Shown one piece after another: positions 9,318 to 60,271 of a DNA stretch of 64,000 bases. The DNA comes from Actinoallomurus purpureus. Its GTDB lineage: Bacteria; Actinomycetota; Actinomycetes; Streptosporangiales; Streptosporangiaceae. The DNA is taken from NCBI RefSeq assembly GCF_024055795.1, contig NZ_JAMXMY010000010.1, forward strand, positions 124,001 to 188,000, in the 5' to 3' direction. Positions within the stretch are counted from its first letter, which is position 1, and every line of letters starts with the position of its first letter. Under the pieces are notes generated by a model, which ran no database searches, was not told where the DNA came from, and was given only the letters and a program-made list of their open reading frames with translations. The position numbers and the translations under genes were made by a program.

Positions 9318-9488
9318 TGTGGAGGGCTCTGTGGACGGCCTGTGCAAACACGCCGATCCGACTGTGCACATCGCCTGTGGATAACCTGTGGATCGCCGGA
9401 TCGACCACCCGAATATCGGCGCTGACCTGGAGATACTCCGTCCACCGCCTGTGGGGGAAAGAAAGTTCGGACGGCAGTCATCCACAGG
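9318..9488. promoter_or_regulatory. Cluster of DnaA-box-like sites upstream of dnaB
   Basis: TGTGGA occurs at 9318, 9330, 9376 and 9387 and its complement TCCACA at 9481. TGTGGATAA at 9376-9384 is an exact complement of the consensus TTATCCACA; the others match six to seven of nine positions. TGTGCACA at 9363-9370 is a further near match. The 326-base gap between dnaB and the divergent MATE gene has no other gene. DnaA binding here is inferred. Confidence 0.55.
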
Positions 9489-9545
9489 GCCACCCACAGG
9501 TCCGAGTAAGTGTCAACTCAGATTTGTCGGTTACAGTGGCACATC

Positions 9546-10877
9546 ATGACGTTCCGGCACCCCCATGACCGGGAGATCCTCCGCCTCGCGGTCCCGGCGC
9601 TCGGCGCGCTCGTCGCCGAGCCGCTGTTCCTCCTCACCGACTCGGCGATCGTCGGTCATCTCGGCACCGTCTCCCTCGGCGCGCTCGGGGTCGCCAGCCA
9701 GATCCTCGGCACGCTCGTCAACCTCTGCGTCTTCCTCGCGTACGGCACCACCGCCTCCGTCTCCCGGCAGATCGGCGCGGGGAACCGGCGGGCGGCCGTG
9801 CGCCAGGGCGTCGACGGCATCTGGCTCGCCGTCCTCATCGGCGTCGGCGTCGCCGTGGCCGGTCAGCCGCTCACCCCGGCCGTCGTCCGCGCGTTCGGCG
9901 CGTCGGCCGTGCTCGCGCCACAGGCGGAGACGTACGTCCACGTCAGTCTGCTGGGCGTGCCGGGCATGCTGATCGTGCTGGCCGGCACCGGAGTGCTGCG
10001 CGGCATGCAGGACACCAGGACGCCGCTGTTCGTGTCGGTCGGGATGTTCGCCCTGAACGCCGGGCTCAATGCCGCCCTGGTGCTGGGCCTGGGGCTGGGC
10101 ATCGCGGGATCGGCCTGGGGCACGGTACTGGCCCAGACCGCAGGCGCGGGCGTGTACGTCCTGATGGTGGCGCGAGGCGCGCGACGGCACGGTGCGCCGC
10201 TCCGGCCCGACCTGGCCGGGCTCCGGGCGTCCGCGACGGCCGGCGTCGGTCTCCTGATCCGGACGCTGAGCCTGCGCGTCGTCCTGATCGTCGCCACCAT
10301 GGTCGCCGCGCGGCTGGGCGACGCTCAGATCGCCGCGCACCAGATCGCGGCGAACGTGTGGACGCTGCTGGCGTTCGCACTGGACGCGATCGCGATCGCC
10401 GGGCAGGCGATCACCGGCCGCCGGCTCGGCGCGGGGGACGTCGGGGGCGCCCGCGCTGCGACTCGCCGCATGGTCGCGTGGGGCCTCGCCTGCGGAGTCG
10501 TGTTCGCGCTCGCGCTGCTCGCCGCCCGGCCGTGGCTGCCGGACCCGTTCACGGACGACACGGCCGTGCGCTCCCAGCTGCTGGGCGCGCTTGTGATCGT
10601 GGCGCTGCTGCAGCCGATCGCCGGGGTCGTCTTCGTCCTCGACGGTGTGCTGATCGGCGCGGGCGACATGGGCTTTCTGGCGGTGGCCGGGGTGATCCAG
10701 ACGGCGGCGTTCCTGCCGGTCGCCTGGCTCGCGTACGCGCTGGGCGGCGGGCTCGTGTCGTTGTGGCTCGCGATGGGCGTCTGGATGCTCGCCCGGCTGG
10801 TCACGCTGGGCCTGCGGGCGCGGAGCGACGCCTGGCTCGTCGCGGGCGCCCGTACGCGGGTGAGCGCGGCCCCGTGA
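9546..10877 (+). CDS. MATE family efflux transporter (DinF-like)
   Basis: 443-residue multidrug/toxin extrusion protein with about 12 transmembrane helices, beginning HDREILRLAVPALGALVAEPLFLLTDSAIVGHLG, the typical DinF-subfamily opening. It exports organic cations or drugs in exchange for H+ or Na+. The start at ATG 9546 is preceded by TACAGT eight bases upstream with no ribosome site, suggesting leaderless translation; an upstream GTG at 9510 would add 12 residues. Divergent from dnaB. Confidence 0.88.
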   Translation: MTFRHPHDREILRLAVPALGALVAEPLFLLTDSAIVGHLGTVSLGALGVASQILGTLVNLCVFLAYGTTASVSRQIGAGNRRAAVRQGVDGIWLAVLIGVGVAVAGQPLTPAVVRAFGASAVLAPQAETYVHVSLLGVPGMLIVLAGTGVLRGMQDTRTPLFVSVGMFALNAGLNAALVLGLGLGIAGSAWGTVLAQTAGAGVYVLMVARGARRHGAPLRPDLAGLRASATAGVGLLIRTLSLRVVLIVATMVAARLGDAQIAAHQIAANVWTLLAFALDAIAIAGQAITGRRLGAGDVGGARAATRRMVAWGLACGVVFALALLAARPWLPDPFTDDTAVRSQLLGALVIVALLQPIAGVVFVLDGVLIGAGDMGFLAVAGVIQTAAFLPVAWLAYALGGGLVSLWLAMGVWMLARLVTLGLRARSDAWLVAGARTRVSAAP

Positions 10878-10959
10878 CCGGAACCGCGATCAGGACGCGG
10901 CTTCCCGTGAGATCGAGACCGGGGTCAGCGCGCGGCGTCCCGTGAGGCCGGGACCGGGG

Positions 10960-11589
10960 TCAGCGCGGGGCGTCCCGTGAGGCCCGGGCCGCGACCTGGG
11001 CGCGCATGCCGTCCAGCATCCGCTGCAGGCCGTACTCGAAGAGCGCGTCACGGTCCAGGGCGGCGGCCCCGGCCGCGGTGATGATCGGGAACTTCTCCAC
11101 GTCGAACTCGACGCCGGCGTCGTCCTCACGCTCCGCGTCATTCTGTTCGTCCAGCACGAACCCGACCACGTAGTGACCGAGGACGATCACAGCGCGTACG
11201 GCGTCTTCGGGGCTGAACCCGGCGTCCACCAGGGCGCTCAGCACGCGCTCGAGACGCGGCCAGCTCTCGGGTGTCGGCCGGTTTCCGGCCGCGAGCCGCG
11301 CGCCGTCGCGGTGCGCGAGCAACCCTCGCCGCTGAATCCGCATCCCCTCGGCGAGCCATTCGTCCCACGACTGGCCGGCCGCCGGGGGTTCGATGGTGAT
11401 GCCGGCCTCGTCCCTGGCGAAGAGCGTCAGGTGGTCGAGGAGGTCCCGCTTGTTCTTGAAGTGCCAGTAGAGCGCGGGTGCCTGGACGCCCAGCTCCTTG
11501 GCCAGCCGGCGCAGCGACAGCCCGTCCAGGCCGACCTCGTCGAGCAGCCGCAGGGCGGTACGGAGCACCGTCTCACGTTCCAGCGCCAT
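10960..11589 (-). CDS. TetR family transcriptional regulator (tetracycline-repressor type)
   Basis: 209 residues. The N-terminal helix-turn-helix spans about residues 8-50 (TALRLLDEVGLDGLSLRRLAKELGVQAPALYWHFKNKRDLL), very like TetR itself, and the rest fits the TetR_C ligand-binding domain. The start is set by AGGAGGAGATCC directly upstream. Divergent from an FAD monooxygenase with three operator-like repeats in the 84-base gap, so it probably represses both genes and responds to the monooxygenase substrate. Confidence 0.92.
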   Translation of the reverse strand: MALERETVLRTALRLLDEVGLDGLSLRRLAKELGVQAPALYWHFKNKRDLLDHLTLFARDEAGITIEPPAAGQSWDEWLAEGMRIQRRGLLAHRDGARLAAGNRPTPESWPRLERVLSALVDAGFSPEDAVRAVIVLGHYVVGFVLDEQNDAEREDDAGVEFDVEKFPIITAAGAAALDRDALFEYGLQRMLDGMRAQVAARASRDAPR

Positions 11590-11612
11590 GGATCTCCTCC
11601 TCCTGTTGACAA

Positions 11613-11666
11613 CTTAACACCGTTCAATCATCCTTAACACCGTTAAGGATTTAACACTGTTAAGGA
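11613..11666. promoter_or_regulatory. Tandem TetR-type operators
   Basis: Three related units in the divergent gap: TTAACACCGTT at 11614-11624, CTTAACACCGTTAAG at 11633-11647 and TTTAACACTGTTAAG at 11650-11664. The second and third are near-perfect dyads. They overlap the ribosome site of the monooxygenase (AAGGAG) and follow a TTGACA at 11606-11611. This is a good candidate binding site for the adjacent TetR protein. Confidence 0.75.
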
Positions 11667-11673
11667 GCGAACG

Positions 11674-13176
11674 ATGTCGTACGACGTTGTGATCGTCGGT
11701 GCCGGCCCGATCGGCCTCTTCCTCGCCTGTGAGCTCCGGCTGCAGGGGGTGCGCACGATCGTCCTGGAGCGGCGGACCGAGATCGACCCGACCCTCAAGG
11801 CCGGCGCCGTCGGCGGCCGGGGCGCCGACATCCTCACCCGCCGGGGCATCGTCGAGCTGCTGGGCGACCTGCCCTCGATGGCCGACCTGATGGGCGGCAG
11901 GAAGCCCGCCGCCCAGAGCCTGCAGGCCAAGACCGCGAAGGCGGGCCCGCCGACCGTGGGGCACTTCGCCGGGCTGTGGATCCTGCGCGGCGGCTCGACT
12001 CCGGCCGGAATGCCGATCATCGCCGGTCAGCAGGCGCTCGAGGTCGCCCTCGAGAAGTACGCGATCGAGCTGGGCGCCGACGTAAGGCGCGGCCACGCTC
12101 TCACCGGCATCGACCAGGACGACACCGGTGTCTCGCTCACCGTCGAGGGACCCGAGGCGTACGAACTGCGCGCGGGATGGCTGGTCGGCTGTGACGGGGG
12201 CCGTAGCGCCGTCCGCAAGCTCACCGGATTCGCCTTCCCGGGTGTCGACGGAGTGATCACCGGCCACCAGGCGCTCGTCGAGGTCGACGCCCCGGACTTC
12301 TTCCCGTTCGGCTGGCACCGGACCGAGCACGGGCTGCTGGCACGAGGGCCGATGCCGCAGCGGGTCCTGGCCGCCGAGTTCGACGGGCCGCCCGTCGACC
12401 GCTCCGCGCCGGTCACCCGCGAGGAGCTGCAGGCGTCGCTCCGGCGGCTGTCCGGCACCGAGGTCACCGTCACCGCCGTGCACAGCGCCACACGATTCAC
12501 CGACAACACGCGGCAGGCGGAGACGTACCGCGTCGGCCGGGTCCTGCTGGCCGGTGACGCCGCCCACGTGCATCCGCCCTTCGGTGGCCAAGGCCTCACG
12601 CTCGGCCTCGGAGACGCCGCCAACCTCGGATGGAAGCTCGCCGCCGAGGTGGCCGGCCGAGCACCGGACGGGCTGCTCGACACCTACACGACCGAACGGC
12701 ACCCGGCCGCGGCGCGCGTCCTGCACAACACGCGGGCGCAGGTGGCACTGCTGGCCCCCGGCCCGCGTGTCGACGCGCTGCGCGACGTCTTCACCGCCCT
12801 GGCGTCCACAGAGGAGGCCAACCGCCTGCTCACCGACCTCATGGGCGATCTCGACCTTCGGTACGAGGTGGACTGCGACCACCCGCTCGCCGGCCGCTAC
12901 TGCCCGGACCTGTCCCTGACCGTCTCCGGTACGGCGACGACCGTGGCGGACCTGTCACGAAGCGGCGGCCCCCTGCTGCTCGACCTCGACGACCGTTCCA
13001 GCCTGCGGGACACCGTACGTCCGTGGGCGGACCGGCTCGAGGTCGTGACGGCACGGGCGGAGGAGGTTCCGGCCCCCGTCGTGCTCGTACGGCCGGACGG
13101 GTACGTCGCCTGGGCGGGCGAGGACGCCGACGGCCTGCGGCGGGCCTGCGCGCGCTGGTTCGGCTCGCCGCGCTGA
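11674..13176 (+). CDS. FAD-dependent aromatic monooxygenase (TetX/rifampicin-monooxygenase-like)
   Basis: 500 residues of the class A flavoprotein hydroxylase family. The dinucleotide fold VVIVGAGPIGLFLACEL is at residues 5-21, the DG motif LVGCDGGRSAVRKL near 170-185, the GD motif LLAGDAAHVHPPFGGQGLTLGLGDA near 290-315, and a C-terminal thioredoxin-like tail ends PVVLVRPDGYVAWAGED. It hydroxylates an aromatic polyketide, antibiotic or phenol using NAD(P)H and O2. Divergent TetR control suggests a detoxification or resistance role. The AAGGAG ribosome site sits inside the operator. The true substrate is unknown. Confidence 0.92.
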   Translation: MSYDVVIVGAGPIGLFLACELRLQGVRTIVLERRTEIDPTLKAGAVGGRGADILTRRGIVELLGDLPSMADLMGGRKPAAQSLQAKTAKAGPPTVGHFAGLWILRGGSTPAGMPIIAGQQALEVALEKYAIELGADVRRGHALTGIDQDDTGVSLTVEGPEAYELRAGWLVGCDGGRSAVRKLTGFAFPGVDGVITGHQALVEVDAPDFFPFGWHRTEHGLLARGPMPQRVLAAEFDGPPVDRSAPVTREELQASLRRLSGTEVTVTAVHSATRFTDNTRQAETYRVGRVLLAGDAAHVHPPFGGQGLTLGLGDAANLGWKLAAEVAGRAPDGLLDTYTTERHPAAARVLHNTRAQVALLAPGPRVDALRDVFTALASTEEANRLLTDLMGDLDLRYEVDCDHPLAGRYCPDLSLTVSGTATTVADLSRSGGPLLLDLDDRSSLRDTVRPWADRLEVVTARAEEVPAPVVLVRPDGYVAWAGEDADGLRRACARWFGSPR

Positions 13177-13213
13177 CCGGCCGTACGGGCCCGGCCTCCC
13201 GCCCACCGCGGCA

Positions 13214-13277
13214 TAGGGGCTGTCTGACAAATCCGCTGTCCGACTGCACGAACGGGATTTGTTCAGGACACGCCCTA
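13214..13277. mobile_element. 60-bp MITE-like inverted repeat with TA duplication
   Basis: The left arm GGGGCTGTCTGACAAATCC starts at 13216; the right arm, read inward from 13275, is GGGCGTGTCCTGAACAAATC. The arms match along their length apart from small indels and enclose a core of roughly 20 bases. TA at 13214-13215 and 13276-13277 flanks it, as expected for Tc1/mariner-like (IS630) insertions. The stop codon of the convergent TetR gene (CTA on the plus strand at 13275-13277) is made from the element's last base plus TA. As a strong hairpin between convergent genes it could also end transcription. Confidence 0.6.
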
Positions 13278-13931
13278 AGCGCCGCCTGCTGGGGTGAAAG
13301 CGGTCAGTATCGCGGTGAGGCCGACCTCGAAGTGATCGCCGGGTTCGGTGGCGTCGGCGGCCTCGGCCAGCAGGTTGTAATCGGGCGTGCCCGGGGCGGG
13401 TCGCCGGCTTCGGGCGCCGGCGCCCAGGCGCAGGACGGCCACGCTGAGAGCGTGTCCGAGGGTGTACTCCCGCAGGCAGCGGATGATCCGAAGGCCGGCG
13501 TCCGGCGCGAAGCCCGCGTCCTGAAGTCGCGTGACCATCGCGACGCCCGCGTCGATCGACGCCGGGGAGCGGACCGGCCGGGTGGCAAAGATCGTGACGG
13601 CGTGGGGGTGTCGCAGCAGGGCGTCACGAAGGCGGTGGCAGTACCGCTCGGCCAGCTCTCGCCAGGTGCCGTCCCACGGCAGAGAGGCGACGTCGACCTC
13701 GTCGAAGATCGCCTCGGCGATGCCGTCGAAGAGCGCCTCCTGGTCCGCGACGTGACGGTAGACGGCCATGGGGTCGACTCCCAGCGCGGCGCCGAGCCTG
13801 CGCATGGAGAACTTCGGCAGGCCGTCGGCGTCGATGAGGGCCAGCGCGGCGGAGACGATCTGGCCGCGGTCGAGCGGCGCCCGGGCAGGTCGCGACGGCG
13901 GTGTCCCGTTGGTACGGCCCTTGGGTGTCAT
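13275..13931 (-). CDS. TetR family transcriptional regulator
   Basis: 218 residues with a helix-turn-helix near residues 25-70 (SAALALIDADGLPKFSMRRLGAALGVDPMAVYRHVADQEALFDGI) and a C-terminal domain like TetR_C of the tetracycline-repressor group. The start at 13931 shares its A with the stop of the upstream hydrolase (TGATG), so the pair is translationally coupled; a longer reading to 14105 would overlap the hydrolase in another frame and is rejected. Its stop codon is supplied by the MITE-like insertion, so the natural C-terminus may have been altered. The dyads at 14860-14907 are its likely operator. Confidence 0.88.
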   Translation of the reverse strand: MTPKGRTNGTPPSRPARAPLDRGQIVSAALALIDADGLPKFSMRRLGAALGVDPMAVYRHVADQEALFDGIAEAIFDEVDVASLPWDGTWRELAERYCHRLRDALLRHPHAVTIFATRPVRSPASIDAGVAMVTRLQDAGFAPDAGLRIIRCLREYTLGHALSVAVLRLGAGARSRRPAPGTPDYNLLAEAADATEPGDHFEVGLTAILTAFTPAGGA

Positions 13932-48404: not shown

Positions 48405-50133
48405 GGCCGAACCAAGTCCCGAGGTCGCGGTGACGGCGACCGATCTCCCGACGATCTCCCCCGAGGAGCCCGGCGAGGAGCCCGGCCGCGGCCGTGGGGG
48501 GGTCAGCGGGCTACTGAAGTCCAGTGCCGTCATGGCCCTGGGCACCGTCGCCTCACGGCTCACCGGCTTCATCCGCACCGCGGTGCTCGTCGTCGCGCTC
48601 GGCACCCAGGCGCTCGGCGACGTCTACAACACCGCGAACACCTTCCCCAACGTCATCTACGACCTGCTGCTCGGCGGCGTGCTCACCGCCGTGCACGTGC
48701 CGATGCTGGTCCGCGCGCTGGAGAAGGACCGCAAGTACGGCGAGGAGTACGAAGCACGCCTGCTGACGCTCGTGCTCGGCGCGCTCCTGGCTCTGACCGC
48801 GGTCGCGATGCTCTGCGCACCGCTGCTGGTCGACCTGTACGCCAGCTCGTACAACAAGCAGAAGCACGACCTGGCCGTCCTCTTCGCGCTGTTCTTCCTG
48901 CCGCAGATCTTCTTCTACGGCGTCGGCGCGCTGGCCGGCGCGTCGCTCAACGCGCGCGGCAGCTTCGGGGCGCCCATGTGGACGCCGGTGCTCAACAACG
49001 TCATCGTGATCGCGGTCGGCCTCGGGTTCCTCTTCGTGGCCGGCCCGGGCGTCAATCCCGGGAACATCACGCACACCGAGGTCATCCTGCTGGCGGGCGG
49101 TACGACCCTCGGCATCGTGATCCAGACGATCGCCATGTGGCCGTCCCTGCGCAAGGTGGGCTTCCGGTACCGTCCGCGCTTCGACTTCCGCCGGGAGGAG
49201 CTGGCGCCGGTCGGCGGTATGGCGCTGTGGACCCTGCTGTACGTCGCGATCCAGCAGGTCGGCTTCGTCGTCAACACGAACATCGCCAACAGCGCCGGCC
49301 AGCGCGGCAGTGACGAGGGCATCCCGTACGGCGTCGGCCTCACGCCCTGGAGCAACGCCTACCTGCTGTTCCAACTGCCGTACGCGATCGTCGGCGTCTC
49401 GGTGGTGACGGCGCTGCTGCCGCAGATGAGCCGGCACGCCTCCGACCGGCGGTTCGACCTGGTCAGAGAGAACATGTCCTCCGCGCTGAACCTGTCGTCG
49501 GTGGTCATCGTGCCGTCCGCCGCGCTGCTGTTCGCGCTCGCCCCCGAGCTCACCACGCTGTTCTTCGCGCACGGGTCCACGCAGATCTCGGGTGCCCTGA
49601 TGATCGCCAACGTCCTGCAGGCGTTCACGTTCGCCCTCGTGCCGTTCGCCATCTACCAGCTGCTGCTCCGGGTGTTCTACGCCCTCGCCGACACCCGCAC
49701 CCCCGCCATGATGGCGATCTTCAACGTCGCGATCAGCATCAGCCTCGGCCTGGTCGGCTACTACACGCTGCCCACGAACATGATCGTGGAGGGCATCTCG
49801 ATCGCCCTGGGCGTCTCCTGGACGTTCGGCTGCGTCGTGGCGGCCCTGATCCTGCGCCGTCGCCTGAACGGACTGGGCGCCCGGCACATCGTCACGTCCC
49901 ACCTGAAGATCGCGATCGCGACGATCCCGGCGTTCGGCTTCGCGCTCGCGGTGCACCTGCTGAGCTTCAAGTTCTTCTACTACCACGTGATCTCATCGCT
50001 GGGCGTTCTGGTGATCGGCGGAGGCGGCGCGATGGTGCTGTACTTCCTGGTGGCACGCGTTATGCGGGTCCCCGAGGTGGAGTCGCTACAGCGAACCCTG
50101 ATGGCCAGATTGCCCGGTCGTGGGGCGAGTTAG
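48397..50133 (+). CDS. murJ: Lipid II flippase MurJ (MviN)
   Basis: 578 residues with an acidic N-tail then about 14 transmembrane helices. Conserved SRLTGFIRTAVLVVALG and NTANTFPNVIYDLLLGGVLTAVHVP. Flips lipid II across the membrane. GTG 48397 with GGAGGA 11 bases upstream, overlapping DUF6049. Lacks the fused pseudokinase domain of mycobacterial MviN; that part is a separate gene here. Confidence 0.95.
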   Translation: MAEAEPSPEVAVTATDLPTISPEEPGEEPGRGRGGVSGLLKSSAVMALGTVASRLTGFIRTAVLVVALGTQALGDVYNTANTFPNVIYDLLLGGVLTAVHVPMLVRALEKDRKYGEEYEARLLTLVLGALLALTAVAMLCAPLLVDLYASSYNKQKHDLAVLFALFFLPQIFFYGVGALAGASLNARGSFGAPMWTPVLNNVIVIAVGLGFLFVAGPGVNPGNITHTEVILLAGGTTLGIVIQTIAMWPSLRKVGFRYRPRFDFRREELAPVGGMALWTLLYVAIQQVGFVVNTNIANSAGQRGSDEGIPYGVGLTPWSNAYLLFQLPYAIVGVSVVTALLPQMSRHASDRRFDLVRENMSSALNLSSVVIVPSAALLFALAPELTTLFFAHGSTQISGALMIANVLQAFTFALVPFAIYQLLLRVFYALADTRTPAMMAIFNVAISISLGLVGYYTLPTNMIVEGISIALGVSWTFGCVVAALILRRRLNGLGARHIVTSHLKIAIATIPAFGFALAVHLLSFKFFYYHVISSLGVLVIGGGGAMVLYFLVARVMRVPEVESLQRTLMARLPGRGAS

Positions 50134-50298
50134 GACGTGCTGCCCGTAAGGTGGGAGAGCGCGACTCGCGCCGGGTAGTAATCCAGCGACGCTCCTCGAG
50201 CGTCCTACCATCGGGCGGGATCGTGAGAAGTCTTCCTCCGCCCACAAGGGAGAGAGGGAGGGTCGAAGGCGTAAGGGAGCCACGGCACTGAACATGGG

Positions 50299-51894
50299 AT
50301 GCGACCACCTACGCCGGACGCCGCGTTGAGCACGTCCGTCATCGAACCTGGAACCCGCCTCGCCGGTCGATACCGCCTGGACGACCGCGTCAGCGAAGCG
50401 GGCGGATCTACGTTCTGGAAGGCGACGGACGAGATCCTCGCCCGCTCTGTCGCCGTGCTCACCTTTGCCACGGGCTTTCCCCGGGTGGGCGACGTGGTGA
50501 CCGCGGCCCGCGCCGCGAGCCGGCTCACCGACCCGCGGCTGACCCAGGTCTTCGACGCCGACGACAGCGGCGAGCGCGCGTACGTCGTCAGCGAGTGGGT
50601 CACCGGAGAGACCCTCGAGGATCTCCTCGCCCAGGGGCCCATGGAGGCCGACCGGGCCGCCGCCTTCCTGCTCGAGGCCGCCGAGGCGCTGACCTCCGCG
50701 CACGCCGCCGGCCTGGCCCACCTCTGCGTCACCCCCCACAACCTCGTCTGGACCAGCGGCGGCACCGTCAAGATCACAGGGCTCGGCGTCGAGGCCGTCC
50801 TGTCCGGTGCGACGTCCGACACCCCGGCGCTGGACGACGTGCAGGGCCTCGGCAACATGCTCTACGCCGCGCTCACCGGTCACTGGCCGGGCGGCGAGGG
50901 CATCATCCTGCCCCCCGCGCCGACCGGGGCCGACGGCCGGCCGCTCGTGCCGAGCCAGGTCCGCGCCGGCATCCCGCACAACCTCGACGCGATCGTCTGC
51001 CGGGCGCTGGGCCTCCCTCTCCAGGGCTCGCAGGAGCGGTTCGACGCCCCCGCGGCGTTCGCCGACGCCCTCGCGAAGGTCCCCCGATCACCGCTGCCGT
51101 TCGTGCCGCTCGTCGGCTCGACCCCGCCAGGTGTCGTGCCCCGGCCCGACCACGCCCCGGACCGTACGGCCTCGATGTCCGCTGCGGCGTCTCAGCCGAT
51201 CCCCCCGGTGCAGACCGTGCCGGACAGCGCCCGCATGCGCCCCCCGCAGCCGCCGCAGTACTCCACCGGCGGTCACCGCGCCGACGGCGGCCGGAGCGGC
51301 CAGGGCTCGGTCAACAAGCCCCTCATGGCCGCGCTCGTCGCGGTCGTACTCGTCGTCGTCGCCGTCGGCGCCTGGGGCCTGTCCCAGCTGAACGACAACA
51401 GCGCCGCCAAGAACACCAAGGGCCGCACCCAGACGAGCCCCTCCCAGTCCACCACCAAGCCGTCGGCCACGAAGCTCGACCCGCAGAAGGCCGAGGCCTA
51501 CGATCCCCGAGGCCGTGACAACACCGCCAAACAGAATCCCGAATACGCCATCGATGGCAAGAGCTCGACGGTCTGGAAGAGCCAGCATTACGGCGATGCC
51601 AGCTACGGCAAGTTGCAGAGCGGGTTGGGCCTGCTCATCGACCTGGGCAAGACGGCGACCATCGACAAGGTGAAGATCAGCGCCCCAGAAGGATCCGCCG
51701 GCACTCTTGAGGTCCGGATCGGCGACTCCGGCACCCAGTCCATGAAGAAGGTGGGCACCGGCACCGGCACGGGGACGAACACCATCGACGCTGGGCACGC
51801 CAAGGGCAAGTACGTCCTGCTGTGGTACCCGAAGCTTCCGAACTTCGGCAATTGGATCATCCAGATCAAAGACGTCGAAGTGACCGGATCGTAA
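50299..51894 (+). CDS. Pseudokinase with C-terminal discoidin-like domain, MurJ-associated
   Basis: 531 residues. Residues 15-270 have a Ser/Thr kinase fold (GTRLAGRYRLDDRVSEAGGSTFWKATDE), but the Lys of the VAVK strand is replaced (VAVLTF), HRD is lost (HLCVTPHNL) and DFG reads GLG, so it is catalytically dead. A transmembrane helix (LMAALVAVVLVVVAVGAWGL) precedes an external F5/8-type lectin-like domain (SSTVWKSQHYGDASYGKL). Matches the pseudokinase part of mycobacterial MviN, which binds a forkhead protein. Confidence 0.88.
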   Translation: MRPPTPDAALSTSVIEPGTRLAGRYRLDDRVSEAGGSTFWKATDEILARSVAVLTFATGFPRVGDVVTAARAASRLTDPRLTQVFDADDSGERAYVVSEWVTGETLEDLLAQGPMEADRAAAFLLEAAEALTSAHAAGLAHLCVTPHNLVWTSGGTVKITGLGVEAVLSGATSDTPALDDVQGLGNMLYAALTGHWPGGEGIILPPAPTGADGRPLVPSQVRAGIPHNLDAIVCRALGLPLQGSQERFDAPAAFADALAKVPRSPLPFVPLVGSTPPGVVPRPDHAPDRTASMSAAASQPIPPVQTVPDSARMRPPQPPQYSTGGHRADGGRSGQGSVNKPLMAALVAVVLVVVAVGAWGLSQLNDNSAAKNTKGRTQTSPSQSTTKPSATKLDPQKAEAYDPRGRDNTAKQNPEYAIDGKSSTVWKSQHYGDASYGKLQSGLGLLIDLGKTATIDKVKISAPEGSAGTLEVRIGDSGTQSMKKVGTGTGTGTNTIDAGHAKGKYVLLWYPKLPNFGNWIIQIKDVEVTGS

Positions 51895-52084
51895 TGATCC
51901 AGTCACGGCGGACGTGAGGGTACCGAGACGGCTACCATCGTGAGCGTGTTGAGGCCCCCTACGACGCGAGATCAGGTGCTGGCCGGGCGAGGCGGCAGGA
52001 TCTTGCGGGGGGCGTCGGGGGGCACGCTGGGCGAGGGCGGTACACCATCGGCGGGGTCGCCGGGTACGGAGCGGGCTGACGAAT

Positions 52085-52714
52085 ATGGCGGTCATGCGCG
52101 GGGGACGTTCGGTCGAGGCCGTCCCGGACAAAGAGCTGCTGTCGCGGCACGCGAACGGTGATCCGTACGCGTTCACGGAGCTGGTGCAGAGGCACCGAGA
52201 CCGCATGTGGGCCGTCGCGCTGCGCACGCTCGGCGACCACGAGGAGGCCGCCGACGCCCTGCAGGACGCCTTCCTGTCGGCCTACCGCGCGGCGGGCCGG
52301 TTCCGCGGCGACGCGGCCGTCACGACGTGGTTGCACCGGATCGTGGTCAACGCCTGCCTCGACCGGATACGGCGGCGCTCGATCCGGCCGGTCGTGCCGA
52401 TGGGCGACGACGCCACCCTCGACTCCATCGCCCCGAAGAACTCCGACCCGACCTCCGCGCACGAGCTGTCCCTCGACGTGAGCGAGGCGCTGCGGCGCAT
52501 ACCCTTCGAACAGCGGGCCGCGCTCGTGCTGGTCGACATGATGGGATACGCCGTCGACGAGGCCGCCAAGGTGCTGGAGGTGCCGCCGGGCACCATCAAG
52601 AGCCGGTGCGCCCGCGGCCGGGCCCGCCTCGCACCGCTTCTCGGGCACCTACGGAACCAGGGACGCGGCTCGGGCGTCGAAACTGCGGAGGAAGGAGGTG
52701 GCACATCCGCGTGA
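52085..52714 (+). CDS. sigM: ECF RNA polymerase sigma factor SigM
   Basis: 209 residues. Region 2 reads AFTELVQRHRDRMWAVALRTLGDHEEAADALQDAFLSAYRAAGRF, and region 4 ends with AAKVLEVPPGTIKSRCARGRARLAPLL. By synteny (murJ-sigM-anti-sigma-trxB) this is SigM, which answers oxidative/disulfide stress in mycobacteria and streptomycetes (SigR-like). Stop overlaps the anti-sigma start. Confidence 0.92.
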   Translation: MAVMRGGRSVEAVPDKELLSRHANGDPYAFTELVQRHRDRMWAVALRTLGDHEEAADALQDAFLSAYRAAGRFRGDAAVTTWLHRIVVNACLDRIRRRSIRPVVPMGDDATLDSIAPKNSDPTSAHELSLDVSEALRRIPFEQRAALVLVDMMGYAVDEAAKVLEVPPGTIKSRCARGRARLAPLLGHLRNQGRGSGVETAEEGGGTSA

Positions 52715-53472
52715 CTGCCGCACACCTTGACTACGATGCGCTGGCCGACCTCGCCGAGGGGATTCTCGACGATGCCACGGCCATATCCGCAGAACAACAC
52801 CTGGCCGAATGCGACGAGTGTCGTGATCGGGCCACCGAGGTCGCGGAGGTGTCCCGCGCTCTCGCGGAGGCACCGATTCCGCCGATGCCCGCTCACCTGG
52901 TCGAGCGCCTCGACGCTGCCATAGCGGCCGAGGCGGCCTCGCATGTGCCAGGGCATCGGCACGCCCGGCGATTTCAGTTTCTCGCCGCGGCGGCGGCCGC
53001 AGTGGTGGTCGTCGGCGGCGGGGGCGTCATCGCCCGCACCGTCCTGGAGGACGGGGACTCCAACAGCGCGACCGTCTCCCAGCGTCCGGTGGAAGAGCCC
53101 TCACGCCCGCACACGGGAGGCACCCAGCCTCGACCGCGGGCCGCGAGTTCGGTTCCGTACACCGCCGTTCAGAGCGGCACCCGCTACACCTCGGCGGAGC
53201 TGGAGTCTCAGCTCGCCTCGGCGCTGTCCATGTCGACCACCGGACAGCATGCGCTGAGCGCGGCGATCAACGGCTCGGTGGCCGCCTGCGTCGGCCGGGT
53301 CAGTGGCGGGAAGCCCCCGTTGCTGGTCGACTCGGCCACGTACGACGGCCGGCCGGCGACGGTCATCGCCCTTCCGGGGGCCGATGTCACGCACGCCGAC
53401 GTCTGGATCGTCGGAACGAAGTGTTCCGCCGATGACACCGACCTGATCGCGCACCGGCAGATCGCCCACTGA
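52711..53472 (+). CDS. Anti-sigma factor with zinc finger (ZAS type)
   Basis: 253 residues. N-terminal HLAECDECR zinc-anti-sigma motif, one transmembrane helix (FLAAAAAAVVVVGGGGVIAR) and an external domain. GTG overlaps the sigM TGA with AGGAGGTGG upstream. Holds SigM at the membrane until a signal releases it. Confidence 0.9.
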   Translation: MTAAHLDYDALADLAEGILDDATAISAEQHLAECDECRDRATEVAEVSRALAEAPIPPMPAHLVERLDAAIAAEAASHVPGHRHARRFQFLAAAAAAVVVVGGGGVIARTVLEDGDSNSATVSQRPVEEPSRPHTGGTQPRPRAASSVPYTAVQSGTRYTSAELESQLASALSMSTTGQHALSAAINGSVAACVGRVSGGKPPLLVDSATYDGRPATVIALPGADVTHADVWIVGTKCSADDTDLIAHRQIAH

Positions 53473-53479
53473 TCTGTAT

Positions 53480-53530
53480 GCGCCGTACGGCCGCGCCGTC
53501 CCGGACGAGGACGGTGCGGCCGTACGGCGC
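53480..53530 (+). terminator. Long hairpin after the sigM operon
   Basis: GCGCCGTACGGCCGCGCCG and its complement form a stem of about 22 bp with one imperfect pair and a short loop. It begins 8 bases past the stop. Confidence 0.8.
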
Positions 53531-53646
53531 GCGCGTGGCGCGGGTGGGAATCCCCGCGCCCTAGGATCGGTTTACGTCACTGCGAGCGAGGTAACCGGGC
53601 AAACAGGACCGGTACGGCTTCGCGGACGCGATCGGAGAGAGGCACT

Positions 53647-54609
53647 GTGGTGAGCGACGACGTCCGGAACGTGATCATCATCGGTTCGGGGCCGGCGGGC
53701 TACTCCGCAGCGGTCTACGCCGCCCGAGGCGACCTGAAACCGCTGGTGTTCGAGGGCTCGGTGACCGCCGGTGGCGCGCTGATGAACACCACCGACGTGG
53801 AGAACTTCCCGGGCTTCCCCGACGGCATCATGGGCCCCGACCTGATGGACAACCTGCGCAAGCAGGCCGAACGGTTCGGTGCCGAACTGGTCACCGACGA
53901 CGTGACCGAGGTCGACCTGGCGGCGTCGCCGAAGGTCGTCAAGGTCGGCGACGACACCTACCTCGCCAAGGCGGTCGTGATCGCCACGGGGTCGAAGTAC
54001 CGCGAGCTCGGGCTGCCGAAGGAGAAGCAGCTCTCCGGTCGCGGCGTCTCCTGGTGCGCCACCTGTGACGGCTTCTTCTTCCGCGACAAGGACATCGCGG
54101 TGGTCGGCGGCGGCGACTCGGCGATGGAAGAGGCGATCTTCCTGACGCGGTTCGCGCGGTCGGTCACGATCATCCACCGTCGCCACGAGCTCCGCGCCAG
54201 CAGGATCATGCAGGACCGTGCGTTCTCCAACGAGAAGATCCGGTTCGCCTGGAACAGCGAGGTCGCCGAGATCCTCGGGGACGAGAAGCTGACCGGCGTG
54301 CGGCTTCGCGACATCAACACGGGCGAGGAGAGAACCTTGGAGCTCTCCGGCCTGTTCATCGCGATCGGGCACGATCCGCGCACGGAACTCTTCACCGACC
54401 AGCTGGAACTGGACGAGGACGGATACCTCAGCGTCCAGGCGCCGACGACCCACACCACCATCCCCGGCGTCTTCGGCGCGGGCGATGTGGTCGACCACCG
54501 CTACCGCCAGGCGATCACCGCGGCCGGCACCGGTGCCGCCGCCGCCCTCGACGCGGAGCACTGGCTCCAGGAGGAGGGGATCGCGGAGCTGACCCCGCAG
54601 CAGGTCTGA
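53647..54609 (+). CDS. trxB: Thioredoxin reductase
   Basis: 320 residues: FAD-binding [18 protein letters not shown], redox CATC at residues 137-140, NADPH-binding [12 protein letters not shown], and the closing [27 protein letters not shown]. Reduces thioredoxin. Normally trxA follows it in Actinobacteria; here it does not. Confidence 0.96.
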
Positions 54610-54667
54610 TCCGCTCCCTCGATCGACGCCCGATCGGCTTTTCCCCGGCCTCCCGCGGCCAGGTGGA

Positions 54668-54699
54668 CGATGGCCCCGCGTTATCACGCGGGGCCATCG
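54668..54699 (+). terminator. Terminator of trxB
   Basis: 13-bp perfect stem CGATGGCCCCGCG / CGCGGGGCCATCG with TTATCA loop, followed by CTATTTC. The remaining gap to 54963 shows nothing else. Confidence 0.88.
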
Positions 54700-54963
54700 C
54701 TATTTCACGGCTCCTACCTGCGAAAACGCGCCAGGGCCTCGCTGTCGGGCGATCTCGGTCACCCCGGTGTCATCGGCTCAATCCGAGGGCTCAGTGGCCC
54801 CAGGGGGCTCTCAGGCCACAGAATGACCGTTCCTGGGCCGACGGGGTGCTGGATCTCGCTCGAAGAGCGCCACCTGCCGAGAGAACCGCGGTTTGAACGG
54901 CGTGGCGCCTTGCGCAGAGGACCGCGAACCGTTCGCGCATCCGCAGCGAGCGCCGACAACGCT

Positions 54964-56215
54964 TGTGAGGTCCCGGTTGATCTGGCCACCGCCCATGTTT
55001 CCGACCTCCGGTCGGCCAGTTCCCTCCGGACGTGTGGGCGTCTCATTTGAAGTGGCCAATTTCCGGGTGCGTCGGCTTTGTCCGGTGGGCTACGCTGTGC
55101 GGCGATGATTACCGGGACGGCATTGCGCCACACACGGATTGGCGACCCGGTGCTCTTCTGAGCGCCGTACGGGCCGGTGCGGGCCCGCTGTTCGATCGAG
55201 GGTCTAGCGCTGCCGCGCGGGCTCCGCCTCCGTCGTGTTGATCACAGGCTCGACACATCAACCACGACAGGAGAGGTCATGCCCACCAAGACTCTGCAGA
55301 TTCCCACCACCGACGGCCAGGCCGACGCCTTCGCCGCGTTCCCCGACCACGGCGAGCGGCACCCAGGGGTGCTGATGTACGCGGACGGTTTCGGCATCCG
55401 GCCCGTGCTGCGGGAGATGGCCCGCGAACTGGCCGGGCACGGGTACTACGTGCTCGTCCCCAACTTCTTCTACCGGCACGGCCCGGCACCGGTGATCGAA
55501 CTTCCCGAGCACATCGGAGAAGAGGTCCGGCCCGCGGTCATCGCCCAGCTGATGCCCTTGATCGAGGCGCACACCACCGAACGTGTCCTGAGCGACGCCG
55601 ACGCCTACCTCAGGTTCCTCACCACCCAGCCCGAGGTCAGCGCCGGACCGGTCGCGGTGACCGGCTACTGCATAGGCGGCCTCCTGGCGATGCGCACCGC
55701 CGTGGCCCACCCCGGCCAGGTTGCCGCCGTCGCCGGATTCCACGGCCCCGTGGGCGCCGACGGGCCCGACAGCCTCTCCAAGCTCACCGCCCAGGTCCAC
55801 CTCGGCCACGCCGAAACCGACATCACGCCCGAGGCCCTCGGCGAGCTCAACCAGGCCCTGGATACCGCAGGTGTCGACTACACCTCCGAGATCTACCCCG
55901 GCACCGTCCACGGCTTCACCATGTCCGACACCGACGCCTTCAACCCCTCCGCACTGCAACGCCACTGGGACCGCCTGCTCCCCCTCCTCGACCGCACCCT
56001 GGCCAACAGCTGAGGCTCCGGCTCGGAAAACAAACCCGAAGTACACGAGGCCAGGCCCTCATTCGGGGCTGTACCGCGCGGCTTCCCAAGCTGACCGCGC
56101 ATGCTGCCGTTGAGGGCGTGGCTTCCGGGAGCCGCCCACTGGCCGCATCTCCCGGGACGGGCCACCTACTTGGCCACATCACCGCGGAATCGGCCAGATC
56201 AGCGGCGACCTGACA
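54964..56215. mobile_element. 1.25-kb IS21-ended mobile cassette carrying a dienelactone hydrolase
   Basis: The left end TGTGAGGTCCCGGTTGATCT and the inverted right end TGTCAGGTCGCCGCTGATCT, each followed by GGCC, agree at 20 of 24 positions. Both ends repeat TGGCCA-type sub-terminal boxes (left 54983, 55013, 55053; right 56192, 56172, 56140 in inverse sense), a hallmark of IS21-family ends. ACGCT flanks it directly at 54959-54963 and 56216-56220, a 5-bp target duplication. No istA or istB is present; the only gene is the hydrolase at 55279. Looks like a passenger cassette mobilised in trans. IS21 assignment is inference from end structure. Confidence 0.72.
55279..56013 (+). CDS. Dienelactone hydrolase family protein
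   Basis: 244 residues. Nucleophile elbow GYCIGG with catalytic Cys, Asp/His partners in AETDITPE and TVHGFTMSD near the C-terminus, and the family opening TTDGQADAFAAFPD, HPGVLMYADGFGIRP. May hydrolyse dienelactones or other lactone/ester compounds. AGGAGAGGTC before the ATG; the frame extends upstream but without a site. Sole cargo of the IS21-ended element. Confidence 0.9.
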   Translation: MPTKTLQIPTTDGQADAFAAFPDHGERHPGVLMYADGFGIRPVLREMARELAGHGYYVLVPNFFYRHGPAPVIELPEHIGEEVRPAVIAQLMPLIEAHTTERVLSDADAYLRFLTTQPEVSAGPVAVTGYCIGGLLAMRTAVAHPGQVAAVAGFHGPVGADGPDSLSKLTAQVHLGHAETDITPEALGELNQALDTAGVDYTSEIYPGTVHGFTMSDTDAFNPSALQRHWDRLLPLLDRTLANS

Positions 56216-56483
56216 ACGCTGGGGCACTCGCGGCCACCCGACCCGATCGACACGTGGCACCGGCCGCACCGTTCCGGGCCGACTCGGCTACGGCGGCCAT
56301 CTCGCCCGTGGCGACGTGAGCCGACGCCGATCGCTCCCTGGGCGACACCATCGACCGCCTTCCGAGCGGCGGCGAGCGTATCCGCCCCGCCGGCTGCCCC
56401 ACCGCCCCACCGTGCCCGGTCCCTGCAGGCTGCCGCCTTGTCGGACCGGATGGCGGAGGGGGGCCGGTGAACGTGAGAGGCCG
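56216..56483. other. Gene-free stretch right of the cassette
   Basis: Begins with the ACGCT target copy. No conserved frame or hairpin is recognised. Together with the right end of the cassette, the sequence from 56014 to 56483 holds no gene. Confidence 0.5.
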
Positions 56484-57101
56484 TCAGACGGGCCGGAGGG
56501 CGCCTTCGGGGGACATGGAGCCGAGGAGGCGTTCCAGGGCGACCTCGACGTCCTCACGCCAGGAGATGGCGGACTTGAGCTCGAGCCGCAGGCGTGGGAA
56601 CCGGTGGTGTGGCCGTACCGTCTTGAACCCCACCGCGAGCATGTACTCGGCGGGCAGGACGCAGCCGGGCTTCTCCCACTTCAGGTCGCCGAAGGCCTCG
56701 ATCGCTCGGATGCCCCGCCGGGTGAGGTCCTTCGCGACGCCCTGCACGAGCATCCGCCCGAGCCCACCACCCTGGAACTCGGGGATGATGTGCGCGGTCA
56801 TCAGGAGGGCGGCGTCGGCGCTCACGGGGCTCGTCGGAAAGGCGACGGAGCGCGGGACGTAGAGCGGCGGTGCGAACAGGACGTACCCCGCGGGCACTCC
56901 GTCGACGTACACGATCTTTCCGCAGCTTCCCCATTCGAGGAGCGTGGCGGAGATCCAGGCCTCCTTCTCCAGCTCCGTGTCGCCGCAGTCCTCGGCGCGC
57001 TGCTTGCTCACCGGATCGAGCTCCCAGAACACGCACCTGCGACACCGAGATGGCAGGTCCTCAAGATTGTCGAGCGTGATATTCACCAGGCGACGCGACA
57101 C
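56484..57101 (-). CDS. GNAT family N-acetyltransferase
   Basis: 205 residues. The acetyl-CoA loop is in TAHIIPEFQGGGLGRMLVQG, and the N-terminus LVNITLDNLEDLPSRCRRCVFWELDP is the conserved mark of a family found next to parB in Actinobacteria. Target unknown. GTG start. Confidence 0.85.
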   Translation of the reverse strand: MSRRLVNITLDNLEDLPSRCRRCVFWELDPVSKQRAEDCGDTELEKEAWISATLLEWGSCGKIVYVDGVPAGYVLFAPPLYVPRSVAFPTSPVSADAALLMTAHIIPEFQGGGLGRMLVQGVAKDLTRRGIRAIEAFGDLKWEKPGCVLPAEYMLAVGFKTVRPHHRFPRLRLELKSAISWREDVEVALERLLGSMSPEGALRPV

Positions 57102-57213
57102 CGGCCAGTCCCCCTTCTTGGGCGGAGCGCCTTCATCCCCAGGAACCTATTCCCGCTTCAGGAGAACCTAAGAGCTTCCGCTCGAACTACGGCTTCGCGA
57201 GCGGATGGCCGCT

Positions 57214-57227
57214 GTTTCACGTGAAAC
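57214..57227. promoter_or_regulatory. parS site (perfect)
   Basis: GTTTCACGTGAAAC, a perfect palindrome, 18 bases past the end of parB. ParB nucleates here to form the partition complex near the origin. Confidence 0.95.
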
Positions 57228-57244
57228 CATCCGCCCGAACACAG

Positions 57245-58195
57245 CTACACCTGCGGACGACCGTCCGGTGTCATCGCGTTGACGATCCGCTCCAGATCCT
57301 CGAGCGTCGCGAACTCGACCACGATCTTCCCCTTGCGCTGGCCGAGGTCGACGCTCACCTTGGTCTCGTAGAGCTCCGACAGCTCGGAGGCGAGTTCTCT
57401 GATCCGGGGGTTCTCCGGCCTGTTCGGCGCCTTCCGGCGGGCGGCCTGCTTGGTCTCGCCGCCCTCGCCCACCGCGATGAGCTCTTCCACGGCCCGGACC
57501 GAGAGGCCCTCCTCCACGATCCGCTTGGCCAGATACTCCTGCCGCTCCGCGCTCTCCAGGCCCAGAAGCGCTCGGGCATGGCCGGCGCTGAGGACTCCGG
57601 CGGCGACGCGCCGCTGGACGGCGGGCGGCAGGTTCAGGAGACGCAGGGTGTTGGTGATGTGCGGCCGCGAGCGCCCGATGCGCGTGGCCAGCTCGTCGTG
57701 CGTCGCACCGAAGTCGTCGAGCAGCTGCTGGTACGCCGCGGCCTCCTCCAGCGCGTTGAGCTGTTGCCGGTGGAGGTTCTCCATCAGCGCGTCGCGCAGC
57801 ATCTCGTTGTCGCCGGTGTCCCGGACGATCGCCGGGACCTTCTCCAGCTCCGCAAGCTTGGAGGCGCGCAGACGCCGCTCGCCCATGATGAGCTCATAGC
57901 GGTTCGGTCCGAGCTCGCGGACGACGATCGGCTGCAGAAGGCCGACGATTTTGATCGACGCCGCCAGCTCGTCCAACGCGTACTCGTCGAACGTCTGCCG
58001 GGGCTGCCGTGCGTTGGGGATGATCTCCGCAATGGGGATCTCGGCGAAGTGTGCGCCGGCCACCGCCTGCGGCTGGGGCGCGGCGTCGGCCGGTGCCGAC
58101 GTGGGGGCTTCGGCAGGCGTCGACGCCGGTTGTGCGGGCGCCGTCGGGATCAACGCGCCCAGCCCCTTACCGAGACCTCGTCGTTGCTGGCTCAC
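57245..58195 (-). CDS. parB: Chromosome partitioning protein ParB
   Basis: 316 residues. N-tail [13 protein letters not shown] (ParA-stimulating), CTP-binding box with NPRQP-like NARQPRQ and GERRLRA (residues 105-111), and a central helix-turn-helix. Binds parS and spreads as a CTP clamp. Follows parA by about 88 bases. Confidence 0.96.
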
Positions 58196-58283
58196 TTCGT
58201 ACCTTCCCTAGCGCTGCGTCCTACCAGAGCGTCACCCATCACGACCGGGGCCCGTGTCGCGCGCCTCGGTGCCTTCGGTTCGG

Positions 58284-59576
58284 TCATGCGCCGCCCTCCG
58301 CACCCCGATAGGCCATCTCACGGGCGGCCTCCGTATAGGCGAGGGCGCCGCTGGAACTCGGGTCGTAGGTCAGCACGGACTCGCCATAGCTGGGCGCTTC
58401 GGAGACCCGGACGCTGCGGGGGATGACCGTGCTCAGCACCAGGTCGCCGAAGTGGCTGCGCACCTCGTCCGCGACCTGGGCGGCCAGGCGGGTCCGCGCG
58501 TCGTACATCGTGAGGAGGATCGTGGAGACGGCGAGGTTCGGATTGAGGTGCTGTCGGACGAGGTCGACCGTGTGGAGAAGCTGCGTGAGACCCTCGAGCG
58601 CGTAGTACTCCGTCTGAATCGGAATGAGCAGCTCGTCGGCGCCCGTCAGCGCGTTGACGGTGAGCAGACCGAGTGAGGGCGGGCAGTCGATGAGCACGTA
58701 GTCGAACTTCTCGGTGTCGTACGCCTCGATCGCGCGCCGCAGGCGATTCTCACGCGCCACCATCGGGACCAGGTCGACCTCGGCGCCCGCGAGATGCAGC
58801 GTCGCAGGCGCGCAGTACAGATTCGGCAGTCCCTCGGCCGGGACGACGACGTCCTCGAACGGGCCGCCTTCAAGAATCACGTGATAGACGGACGGGATGT
58901 CCGCGTGGTGCTCGACGCCCAACGCGGTCGAGGCGTTCCCCTGAGGGTCAAGGTCGACCACCAGCACCCGCGACCCGTGCATCGCCAGGGCCGCAGCGAG
59001 GTTGACCGTGCTCGTCGTCTTGCCTACGCCGCCCTTCTGGTTGGCGATCGTGATGATGCGGCACCGTGGCGGCCTCGGCCACTCCTTCTCATCCCGCTTC
59101 GCAACCGCCTTGAACGCGGCCGCCGTCGCCCGTACGACCGGCCGCGTCGTTTCACGTGAAACATCGGCCGACTTGAGTGCCTCACTTACCAACTTCGACT
59201 CCCCATGGGCCGGGTCACGTTGCGACGTCTCTTTGACAGGATCGAGAGCGGCGAGATCGCCGGTCGATTCCCCGTCGGAGGCGGGAGTGACAGGCGGCTC
59301 CGCCGGAGTGTCCGGTGGCGGCGCCACCGAAGGCGCCGCCACCGAGGGCATCGCGGCCGGAGGTGCCGGCGCCGTTGCTGTTGTGATCAGAGGCGGGACG
59401 GCAGGCGGTGCGGTCGCCGCCGGTGCCTTTACGGCCGGTGCCGAGCCGGGAATCACCGCCGGGGGAGGCGAGGTCGCGGACGCTCCCGGCCAGCCGAGGC
59501 CGGTGGCGTCCTGCGGCGACGCTCCCGCAGCGCGGTCCGGCCAGCCCAAGCCTTCTGCTGTCGTCAAGGCCGTCAC
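58284..59576 (-). CDS. parA: Chromosome partitioning ATPase ParA
   Basis: 430 residues. Core P-loop ANQKGGVGKTTSTVNLAAALA (deviant Walker A), VVDLDPQGNAST, and VLIDCPPSLGLLT. An unusual N-terminal extension of about 160 residues is Ala/Pro-rich with repeated GLGWP. GTG overlaps the rsmG stop (GTGA). A parS lies inside its coding sequence. Confidence 0.94.
   Translation of the reverse strand: MTALTTAEGLGWPDRAAGASPQDATGLGWPGASATSPPPAVIPGSAPAVKAPAATAPPAVPPLITTATAPAPPAAMPSVAAPSVAPPPDTPAEPPVTPASDGESTGDLAALDPVKETSQRDPAHGESKLVSEALKSADVSRETTRPVVRATAAAFKAVAKRDEKEWPRPPRCRIITIANQKGGVGKTTSTVNLAAALAMHGSRVLVVDLDPQGNASTALGVEHHADIPSVYHVILEGGPFEDVVVPAEGLPNLYCAPATLHLAGAEVDLVPMVARENRLRRAIEAYDTEKFDYVLIDCPPSLGLLTVNALTGADELLIPIQTEYYALEGLTQLLHTVDLVRQHLNPNLAVSTILLTMYDARTRLAAQVADEVRSHFGDLVLSTVIPRSVRVSEAPSYGESVLTYDPSSSGALAYTEAAREMAYRGAEGGA
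59149..59162. promoter_or_regulatory. parS site (perfect) inside parA
   Basis: GTTTCACGTGAAAC within the parA coding region, just upstream of the conserved ATPase core. Encodes part of the linker (VSRETT). Confidence 0.95.
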
Positions 59577-60271
59577 CTCTTCCGTTCACCGCGCCGGCGC
59601 CCGCCGCGACGAGAATTCGTCCGTTTCCCCGAAGGTCGCGGAGCCTCGCCGGCGACGACACGGACGATCGTCGCCGGAGGCTCGACTTTACCGTGACCCA
59701 CCTGAAGCACCTCTGCGTCACGAACGCCGAATTCACTCAGAATGGCGCTCGCCTCTTCGAGCTCGGCCGCCGCGCGCTCTCCCTTGAGCGCCAGCAGCTC
59801 ACCGCCCGGCCGCAGCAGGGGCAGCGCCCAGCCCGCCAGCCGTTCCAAAGGTGCCACCGCGCGGGCCGTGACGATGTCGGCGGCGAACTCGTCGACGACC
59901 TCCTCCGCACGGCCCCGGCGAACCTCCACATTGGACAGCCCGAGGAGGTCGACGCATTCCTGCAGGAAGACGGTGCGGCGAAGGAGCGGCTCGAGAAGCG
60001 TCACGGACAGGTCCGCACGGGCGATCGCGAGCACGAGCCCGGGAAGCCCGGCACCCGAGCCGATGTCGACGACGGTCGCCCCGGCGGGGATGACCTCGGC
60101 CATCACGGCGCAGTTGAGCAGGTGCCGCTCCCACAGGCGCTCGACCTCGCGTGGTCCGATGAGCCCGCGTTCGACTCCGGGGCCGGCGAGGAACTCGGCA
60201 TATCTCTCCGCGGTGGGCAGGGCTTCGGCGAAGATCTCACGGGCGATCGACGGCGCAGGAAGTAGTGGCAT
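59573..60271 (-). CDS. rsmG: 16S rRNA (guanine-527-N7)-methyltransferase
   Basis: 232 residues. GATVVDIGSGAGLPGLVLAIARADL is the SAM site; RAVAPLERLAGWALPLLRPGG follows. Methylates G527. First gene of rsmG-parA-parB. Confidence 0.96.
   Translation of the reverse strand: MPLLPAPSIAREIFAEALPTAERYAEFLAGPGVERGLIGPREVERLWERHLLNCAVMAEVIPAGATVVDIGSGAGLPGLVLAIARADLSVTLLEPLLRRTVFLQECVDLLGLSNVEVRRGRAEEVVDEFAADIVTARAVAPLERLAGWALPLLRPGGELLALKGERAAAELEEASAILSEFGVRDAEVLQVGHGKVEPPATIVRVVAGEAPRPSGKRTNSRRGGRRRGERKR

Follow-up and report, generated by a model that had tools for sequence, protein, structure and literature searches.

A dienelactone hydrolase gene between Tn7-type ends in Actinoallomurus purpureus: a probable non-autonomous transposon

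RESULTS

An intact hydrolase gene lies between inverted repeats and a 5-bp duplication

We analyzed a stretch of 64,000 nucleotides from Actinoallomurus purpureus (contig NZ_JAMXMY010000010.1, positions 124,001 to 188,000), hereafter called the window. The interval that separates trxB from a GNAT gene, adjacent to parB, contains two copies of ACGCT that enclose an element of exactly 1,252 bp (window 54964-56215), whose insertion is intergenic. No tRNA gene was found in window 50000-60000. The features are as follows, in window coordinates.

54959..54963, plus strand: target-site duplication, left copy (ACGCT, 5 bp)
54964..55070, plus strand: left end, with terminal TGT and three TGGCC-type boxes
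55065..56045, plus strand: hydrolase unit common to other actinomycetes (85-97% DNA identity, 80 loci)
55083..55278, plus strand: conserved 5' leader of the hydrolase (leader alignment)
55105..55161, plus strand: upstream reading frame of 18 codons, ATG to TGA, retained within the leader
55279..56013, plus strand: intact passenger gene encoding a 244-aa protein of the dienelactone hydrolase family (PF01738, E 3e-38)
56125..56215, minus strand: right end, with four TGGCC-type boxes and terminal ACA
56216..56220, plus strand: target-site duplication, right copy (ACGCT, 5 bp)

A preliminary description of this DNA had interpreted the segment as a passenger gene carried between IS21-family ends, and the anatomy that it gave withstood reexamination. 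A recount found the terminal 24-mers identical at 20 of 24 positions, an independent inverted-repeat search recovered the same pair as 25 nt with 84% identity, the direct ACGCT duplication is present at both borders, and the 1,252 bp contain one intact hydrolase gene and neither istA nor istB. The three boxes reported for each end were recovered at the left end, whereas the right end has four. These boxes were called with a loose motif of our own making (TGGCC) and are thus motif matches: those of the left end (TGGCC/CGGCC) start at 54983, 55013, and 55053 (element positions 20, 50, and 90), and those of the right end occupy 56192-56196, 56172-56176, 56160-56164, and 56141-56145 (positions 20, 40, 52, and 71). 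We presume that they are TnsB sites. The element thus has the three spread boxes at the left, the four closely spaced boxes at the right, and the 5-bp target-site duplication that are characteristic of Tn7-like transposons; Tn7 itself is described as having three separated sites at its left end and four overlapping ones at its right end (PMC13370975). A miniature inverted-repeat element (MITE), which would be short and non-coding, was excluded by the length of 1,252 bp and the intact gene.

Inverted repeats of this quality are not rare by themselves. Among all candidate elements of 800 to 2,000 bp in the 64-kb window, we counted 18 inverted-repeat pairs matching at 20 or more of 24 positions, which would favor a chance inverted repeat, or two unrelated remnant ends, around a gene native to the locus. 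Against this explanation, a perfect 5-bp direct repeat outside the pair occurred in only 1 of the 18 cases, namely, the ACGCT element.

The ends match those of a complete Tn7-like transposon

When the last 101 bp of the element were used as a query against 341 genomes of the family, matches were obtained at 15 places in 13 genomes, the window's own included, and 10 of the 15, in 8 genomes, had an E value of 4e-8 or better. One genome, G328, contains an element of 7,163 bp (L121:6536-13698) with a CCTAT duplication, flanked by left and right ends akin to those of the window. It carries a run of four genes, tnsA, tnsB, tnsC, and tniQ, whose reading frames are all open and whose products are as follows.

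TnsA-like endonuclease, 249 aa: NF033179 TnsA_like_Actin, E 1e-90; no match among solved protein chains
TnsB, 734 aa: Mu-transpos_C, E 2e-7; solved TnsB of Tn6677, E 4e-7
TnsC, 370 aa: TniB ATPase, E 2e-16; solved ShTnsC, E 1e-11
TniQ, 340 aa: PF06527, E 2e-4, below the curated cut-off

The homology is strong at the right end of the window element, where 78 bp match the outer right end of G328 with 92% identity (E 5e-23), and modest at the left end, where 111 columns align with the G328 left end at 68% identity (E 1e-9) and 106-111 columns with the left ends of genomes G185 and G328 at 68-70%; the left tip of the window element is TGTGAG, against TGTCAG. With the left end of G328 as a family-wide query, G328, G335, and G185 were found at an E value of 4e-24 or better and 11 other genomes at 4e-4 or weaker each, and the genome of the window gave no match. 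The right end of G328 matched 2 of 394 genomes of the class, those of the window and G012, and had no match on plasmids. That both ends of the window element resemble transposon ends elsewhere over 78-111 bp also argues against chance or remnant ends.

The layout of the boxes is largely shared. In each of the five right ends measured, boxes occur at positions 20, 40, and 52; a fourth lies at 71 in the window element and in both right ends of G328, and at 87-88 in G185 and G335. All four left ends have boxes at 20 and 50, and a third is placed at 90 in the window element and at 98 in the elements of G185 and G328, with none in that region of G335. The left ends of G185, G328, and G335, unlike that of the window, have an extra TGACC at position 39, and G185 shows another at 27; by this loose counting, three left-end boxes are clean only in the window. 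Perfect 5-bp duplications border all four elements with both ends paired (window, ACGCT; G185, GCCAC; G328, CCTAT; G335, TCGGC).

Since ends of this kind also border the complete TnsA-TnsB-TnsC-TniQ transposon of G328, we conclude that the ends of the window element are of Tn7 type, and their earlier assignment to the IS21 family has to be abandoned. In contrast to the G328 element, the interior of the window element gave no match to TnsA, TnsB, TnsC, or TniQ of G328 by tblastn (E up to 1), and no tns remnant was detected in this search. Without a TnsB and TnsC of its own, it is a non-autonomous derivative and not a full Tn7-like member. Its anatomy is that of a mobile insertion cassette, with a passenger gene in place of transposition genes between the ends, as first described, and the corollary that any movement would have to occur in trans also stands.

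IS21 elements and resident Tn7-like loci in the genome of the window

IS21 ends share several traits with those found here, namely, TGT and ACA termini, internal repeats, and short duplications, and IstA and IstB are distant kin of TnsB and TnsC. One TnsB resident in the genome gave a weak hit to the IS21 model, with an E value of 4e-6 and 26 bits where the cut-off is 160. To our knowledge, IS21 elements lack the TnsA endonuclease and TniQ, both of which are encoded in the four-gene run of the complete element with these ends. Furthermore, no IstB-like IS21 gene was recognized in a PF01695 search of the window's genome: the three matches, one over the cut-off and two below it, lie in frames of 629, 641, and 442 aa, respectively, and IstB proteins are much shorter. 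Neither istA or istB between the ends nor a full IS21 copy with the same ends was found, the full element being a TnsABC-TniQ transposon. On these grounds we rejected an IS21 origin, and an IS21-family mobile insertion cassette appears scarcely credible.

The genome of the window has two TnsABC-TniQ loci, L130 (G000:C33) and L131 (G000:C11), whose TnsBs share 60% and 52% identity with the G328 protein. A TGGCC array was absent from the 350 bp upstream of both resident tnsA genes, the C33 locus having other repeats there, and the cassette ends had no counterpart in the two resident stretches at a BLAST E value below 0.1. Nor was a second copy of the right end present in the genome at an E value of 0.01 or better, as only three matches of 17-20 bases were obtained. 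TnsB relatives at 63-68% identity (G162, G129, and G359) are likewise preceded by other sequences upstream of tnsA, so the box sequence seems to change fast between clades, and we did not count the resident TnsBs as partners. The fitting transposase that the preliminary description expected elsewhere in the genome was therefore not found. The C33 locus adjoins a lon-like gene and shows a duplication of end-like repeats (about L130:9020-9076 and 9264-9345).

Beyond this genome, no TnsB match at E 1e-50 was found in 7 genus-mates. Among 72,556 plasmid records, 111 contain a TnsB relative at an E value of 1e-60 or better; most of them bear the name Streptomyces or Rhodococcus, and plasmids are a possible entry route for a helper transposase.

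Other cassettes and deletion derivatives with such ends

Two further elements have paired ends of this kind around other genes. That of G185 (L122:619-1765, 1,147 bp, GCCAC) carries a TIGR03086 gene, of mycothiol-dependent type (E 1e-44), and that of G335 (L124:5352-7380, 2,029 bp, TCGGC) has a 222-aa frame without a Pfam match. Neither contains an intact tns gene by tblastn. A remnant of tnsA, its 22 opening codons, survives in the G335 element (91% identical, E 2e-6), and the G185 element perhaps retains the 11 terminal codons of tniQ (E 0.04), as would be expected after internal deletions. No defense family was recognized among the four passengers, and the G185 cassette had no match on plasmids. 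A tRNA gene was considered as a shared target of the four elements, and one was found in G185 only. There, the left flank of the cassette (L122:528-623) recurs at the start of the contig (1-96), exactly over the 23 bases compared, with a tRNA-Arg gene between the copies; this repeat may reflect biology or an assembly edge.

Inner ends are present in two of the elements. In G335 they delimit a 245-bp left-right derivative (L124:5352-5596). In G328, an apparent 202-bp derivative (L121:6536-6737), with a left end of only ∼25-35 bp, precedes cargo genes for an alpha/beta hydrolase and a TetR protein and then a full right-to-left element at 8451-13698; as a whole, L121:6536-13698 looks like a composite Tn7-like transposon. 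The 5-bp duplications that we found stand at the outermost ends, which suggests that the outermost ends of directly repeated copies can carry the DNA between them.

The right ends of G272, G012, and G173 are single, and that of G339 is part of an element in which tnsA and tnsB, but not tnsC or tniQ, were found. Searching the fetched stretches for the expected duplication adjoining a transposon tip, with at most one mismatch, gave no full partner for the right ends of G272, G339, G012, and G173.

The hydrolase gene is found at many other loci

The hydrolase, often with its leader of ∼200 bp, occurs across several actinomycete families at 85-97% DNA identity. We kept 80 of 313 loci (L028-L107), all 80 of which have flanks of more than 300 bp on both sides, and added the window. 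At a BLAST threshold of our own choice, the 81 loci fell into 80 downstream contexts and 59 upstream clusters. Third codon positions differ from those of the window by 11% on average (68 of the 80 loci, those of equal length); for comparison, trxB differs by 13-19% at all positions within the genus. Tn7-type ends were found at none of the 80 other loci, so that the gene also has other means of spreading; one of these loci (L067) gave a distant TnsB-like match. The gene is also on 55 plasmid records, none of which covers 80% of the element. The window element had no match in phages, nor had its hydrolase in phage protein families.

We looked for hidden cassettes by an inverted-repeat search of the flanks of the 80 loci and the window, and none stood clearly above mismatched pairs. 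The score of the window itself was equaled or exceeded by 2.75% of 400 mismatched pairs, a figure that taken alone would favor chance ends, and L083 and L031 scored above it and L032 and L063 equal to it; this test alone would thus have missed the window element. No common ends were detected among the 81 loci. The upstream cluster of 22 loci has another common sequence, which in the single member examined (L053:5406-5897, minus strand) holds a divergent gene, MarR-like by eye. Among the literature matches listed, no title or abstract opening fitted a mobile hydrolase of this kind.

Mean column identity in the leader is 88% (alignment of the window with 36 of 51 leader loci). A predicted hairpin pairs the AGGAG ribosome site, in the manner of a translation attenuator, with covariation near absent (two-sided change in 1 of 41 predicted pairs) and no Rfam match for the leader. 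In a sample of 52 of the 80 loci, selected by an inner motif of the leader, the upstream frame has its ATG in 51 and its TGA in all 52. Changes per codon position number 21, 92, and 77, which gives no sign of protein-level constraint.

The wandering of this gene raises the question of the order of events. An end-only Tn7-like deletion derivative might have inserted first, generating the ACGCT duplication, and the hydrolase might have landed inside it later, the two never having moved together. The hydrolase unit has sharp boundaries and stands in a different place in almost every species without these ends, and short end-only derivatives seem to exist, to judge from the 245-bp and 202-bp segments described above. 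Moreover, a second copy of the hydrolase cassette was not found at the right ends, at the 80 hydrolase loci, or on the plasmid records, and the hydrolase was absent from the DNA fetched around the other nine strong right ends of the 341 family genomes. Set against this, the unit starts ∼12-30 bp past the last left-end box and ends before the right end, as captured cargo would, and such ends surround other genes in G185 and G335, so that capture seems to recur. We therefore consider a later landing rather unlikely.

The trxB-GNAT gap among genus-mates

In the sister species Actinoallomurus spadix, a hydrolase gene lies in the same trxB-GNAT gap without flanking inverted repeats, which would favor chance or remnant ends around a native gene. 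In a tree of the hydrolases, whose bootstrap had not settled, the window copy fell in a four-row group with those of Actinomadura alba (97% identical), Amycolatopsis rhizosphaerae, and Streptoalloteichus hindustanus (support 90/87, moderate), and that of A. spadix grouped with Actinoallomurus iriomotensis (support 100/91). As the two copies are on different branches, they are probably separate arrivals, which argues against a gene native to the locus. Together with the duplication and the kinship of both ends, this makes the chance or remnant explanation very unlikely. The preliminary description had named two findings that would speak against a cassette: orthologous loci with the hydrolase but without the repeats, which A. 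spadix provides, and a lack of related ends anywhere, which does not hold.

The content of the gap (window 54610-56483) varies among genus-mates. One (G001) has unrelated DNA there, and five others have ∼690-790 bp between the matching flanks. In G007, the left flank up to ∼54912 joins the right flank from ∼56474 within 13 bp, so ∼300 bp are absent besides the cassette. A. spadix aligned to window 56221-56455 at 94 of 235 positions with 59 gaps, which is near background, and permissive scoring extends the alignment through this interval. The empty site with a single ACGCT that had been predicted did not emerge, as a comparison of the joined flanks with seven genus-mates gave no clean junction.

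DISCUSSION

An intact hydrolase gene stands in the trxB-GNAT gap between a perfect 5-bp duplication and ends akin to those of a complete transposon. We interpret the window element, with a probability of about 70%, as a non-autonomous Tn7-like transposon in which one passenger of the dienelactone hydrolase family takes the place of tnsABC-tniQ. Its movement as a unit, its partner, and the route of capture are inferred. Two observations pull this reading in opposite directions, the weak left-end search on one side and the tns remnants of G335 and G185 on the other.

As its transposition machinery has been lost, the cassette probably travels only via that of a complete relative. TnsA and TnsB of a G328-type element, arriving with other DNA, would excise it in trans, and TnsC and TniQ would direct it into the trxB-GNAT gap, with ACGCT duplicated at its borders. 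It may have originated when two transposon copies, or a short deletion derivative and a copy, came to lie in direct orientation around the gene and the outermost ends were used; the elements of G328 and G335 resemble such a stage of directly repeated copies. More tentatively, natural “mini-Tn7” cassettes of 1-2 kb that lack intact transposition genes may form a family in actinomycetes, each with a passenger gene, the hydrolase among them; they would arise from directly repeated copies bracketing genes, through use of the outermost ends. This wider proposal is a possibility to which we give less than even odds.

The closest known systems are the actinobacterial Tn7-like transposons with TnsA_like_Actin, TnsB, TnsC, and TniQ, which have the same end sequence, box layout, and 5-bp duplication and a complete representative in the family, that of G328. 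The window element differs in encoding none of the four transposition proteins and only a passenger gene. The G328 element presumably belongs to the Actinobacteria-dominated Tn7-like clade, of which no member has been characterized experimentally according to an excerpt of PMC8649781. That survey, as its excerpt describes it, began from core transposition genes, and surveys of this design would miss cargo on relatives without such genes. Among the matches listed in a mostly open-access literature, titles, abstract openings, and passages revealed no native passenger cassette of Tn7-like type that lacks transposition genes. Should such cassettes move, single genes could exploit the Tn7 pathway at no cost of their own. 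The window ends, of ∼107 and 90 bp, are also a ready substrate for testing actinobacterial Tn7-like transposons.

Defective integron carriers of the Tn402/Tn5053 type belong to the Tn7-like superfamily as non-autonomous members, and they combine 5-bp duplications with foreign cargo. They carry integron platforms, often with tni remnants, whereas the window element has one metabolic gene and no remnant that we could find. Mobile insertion cassettes likewise consist of element ends around passenger genes without a transposase and are expected to move in trans; they are known from insertion sequence ends, whereas the ends described here come from a four-protein Tn7-like system. Such cassettes are listed among the elements moved in trans in an excerpt of PMC4133298, which also describes end-only miniature elements derived from Tn3 that, without a transposase, acquire and mobilize DNA as composite-like non-autonomous transposons. 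The principle of using the outermost ends is comparable to that proposed for the window element, but these miniature elements belong to the Tn3 family, with other ends and another chemistry.
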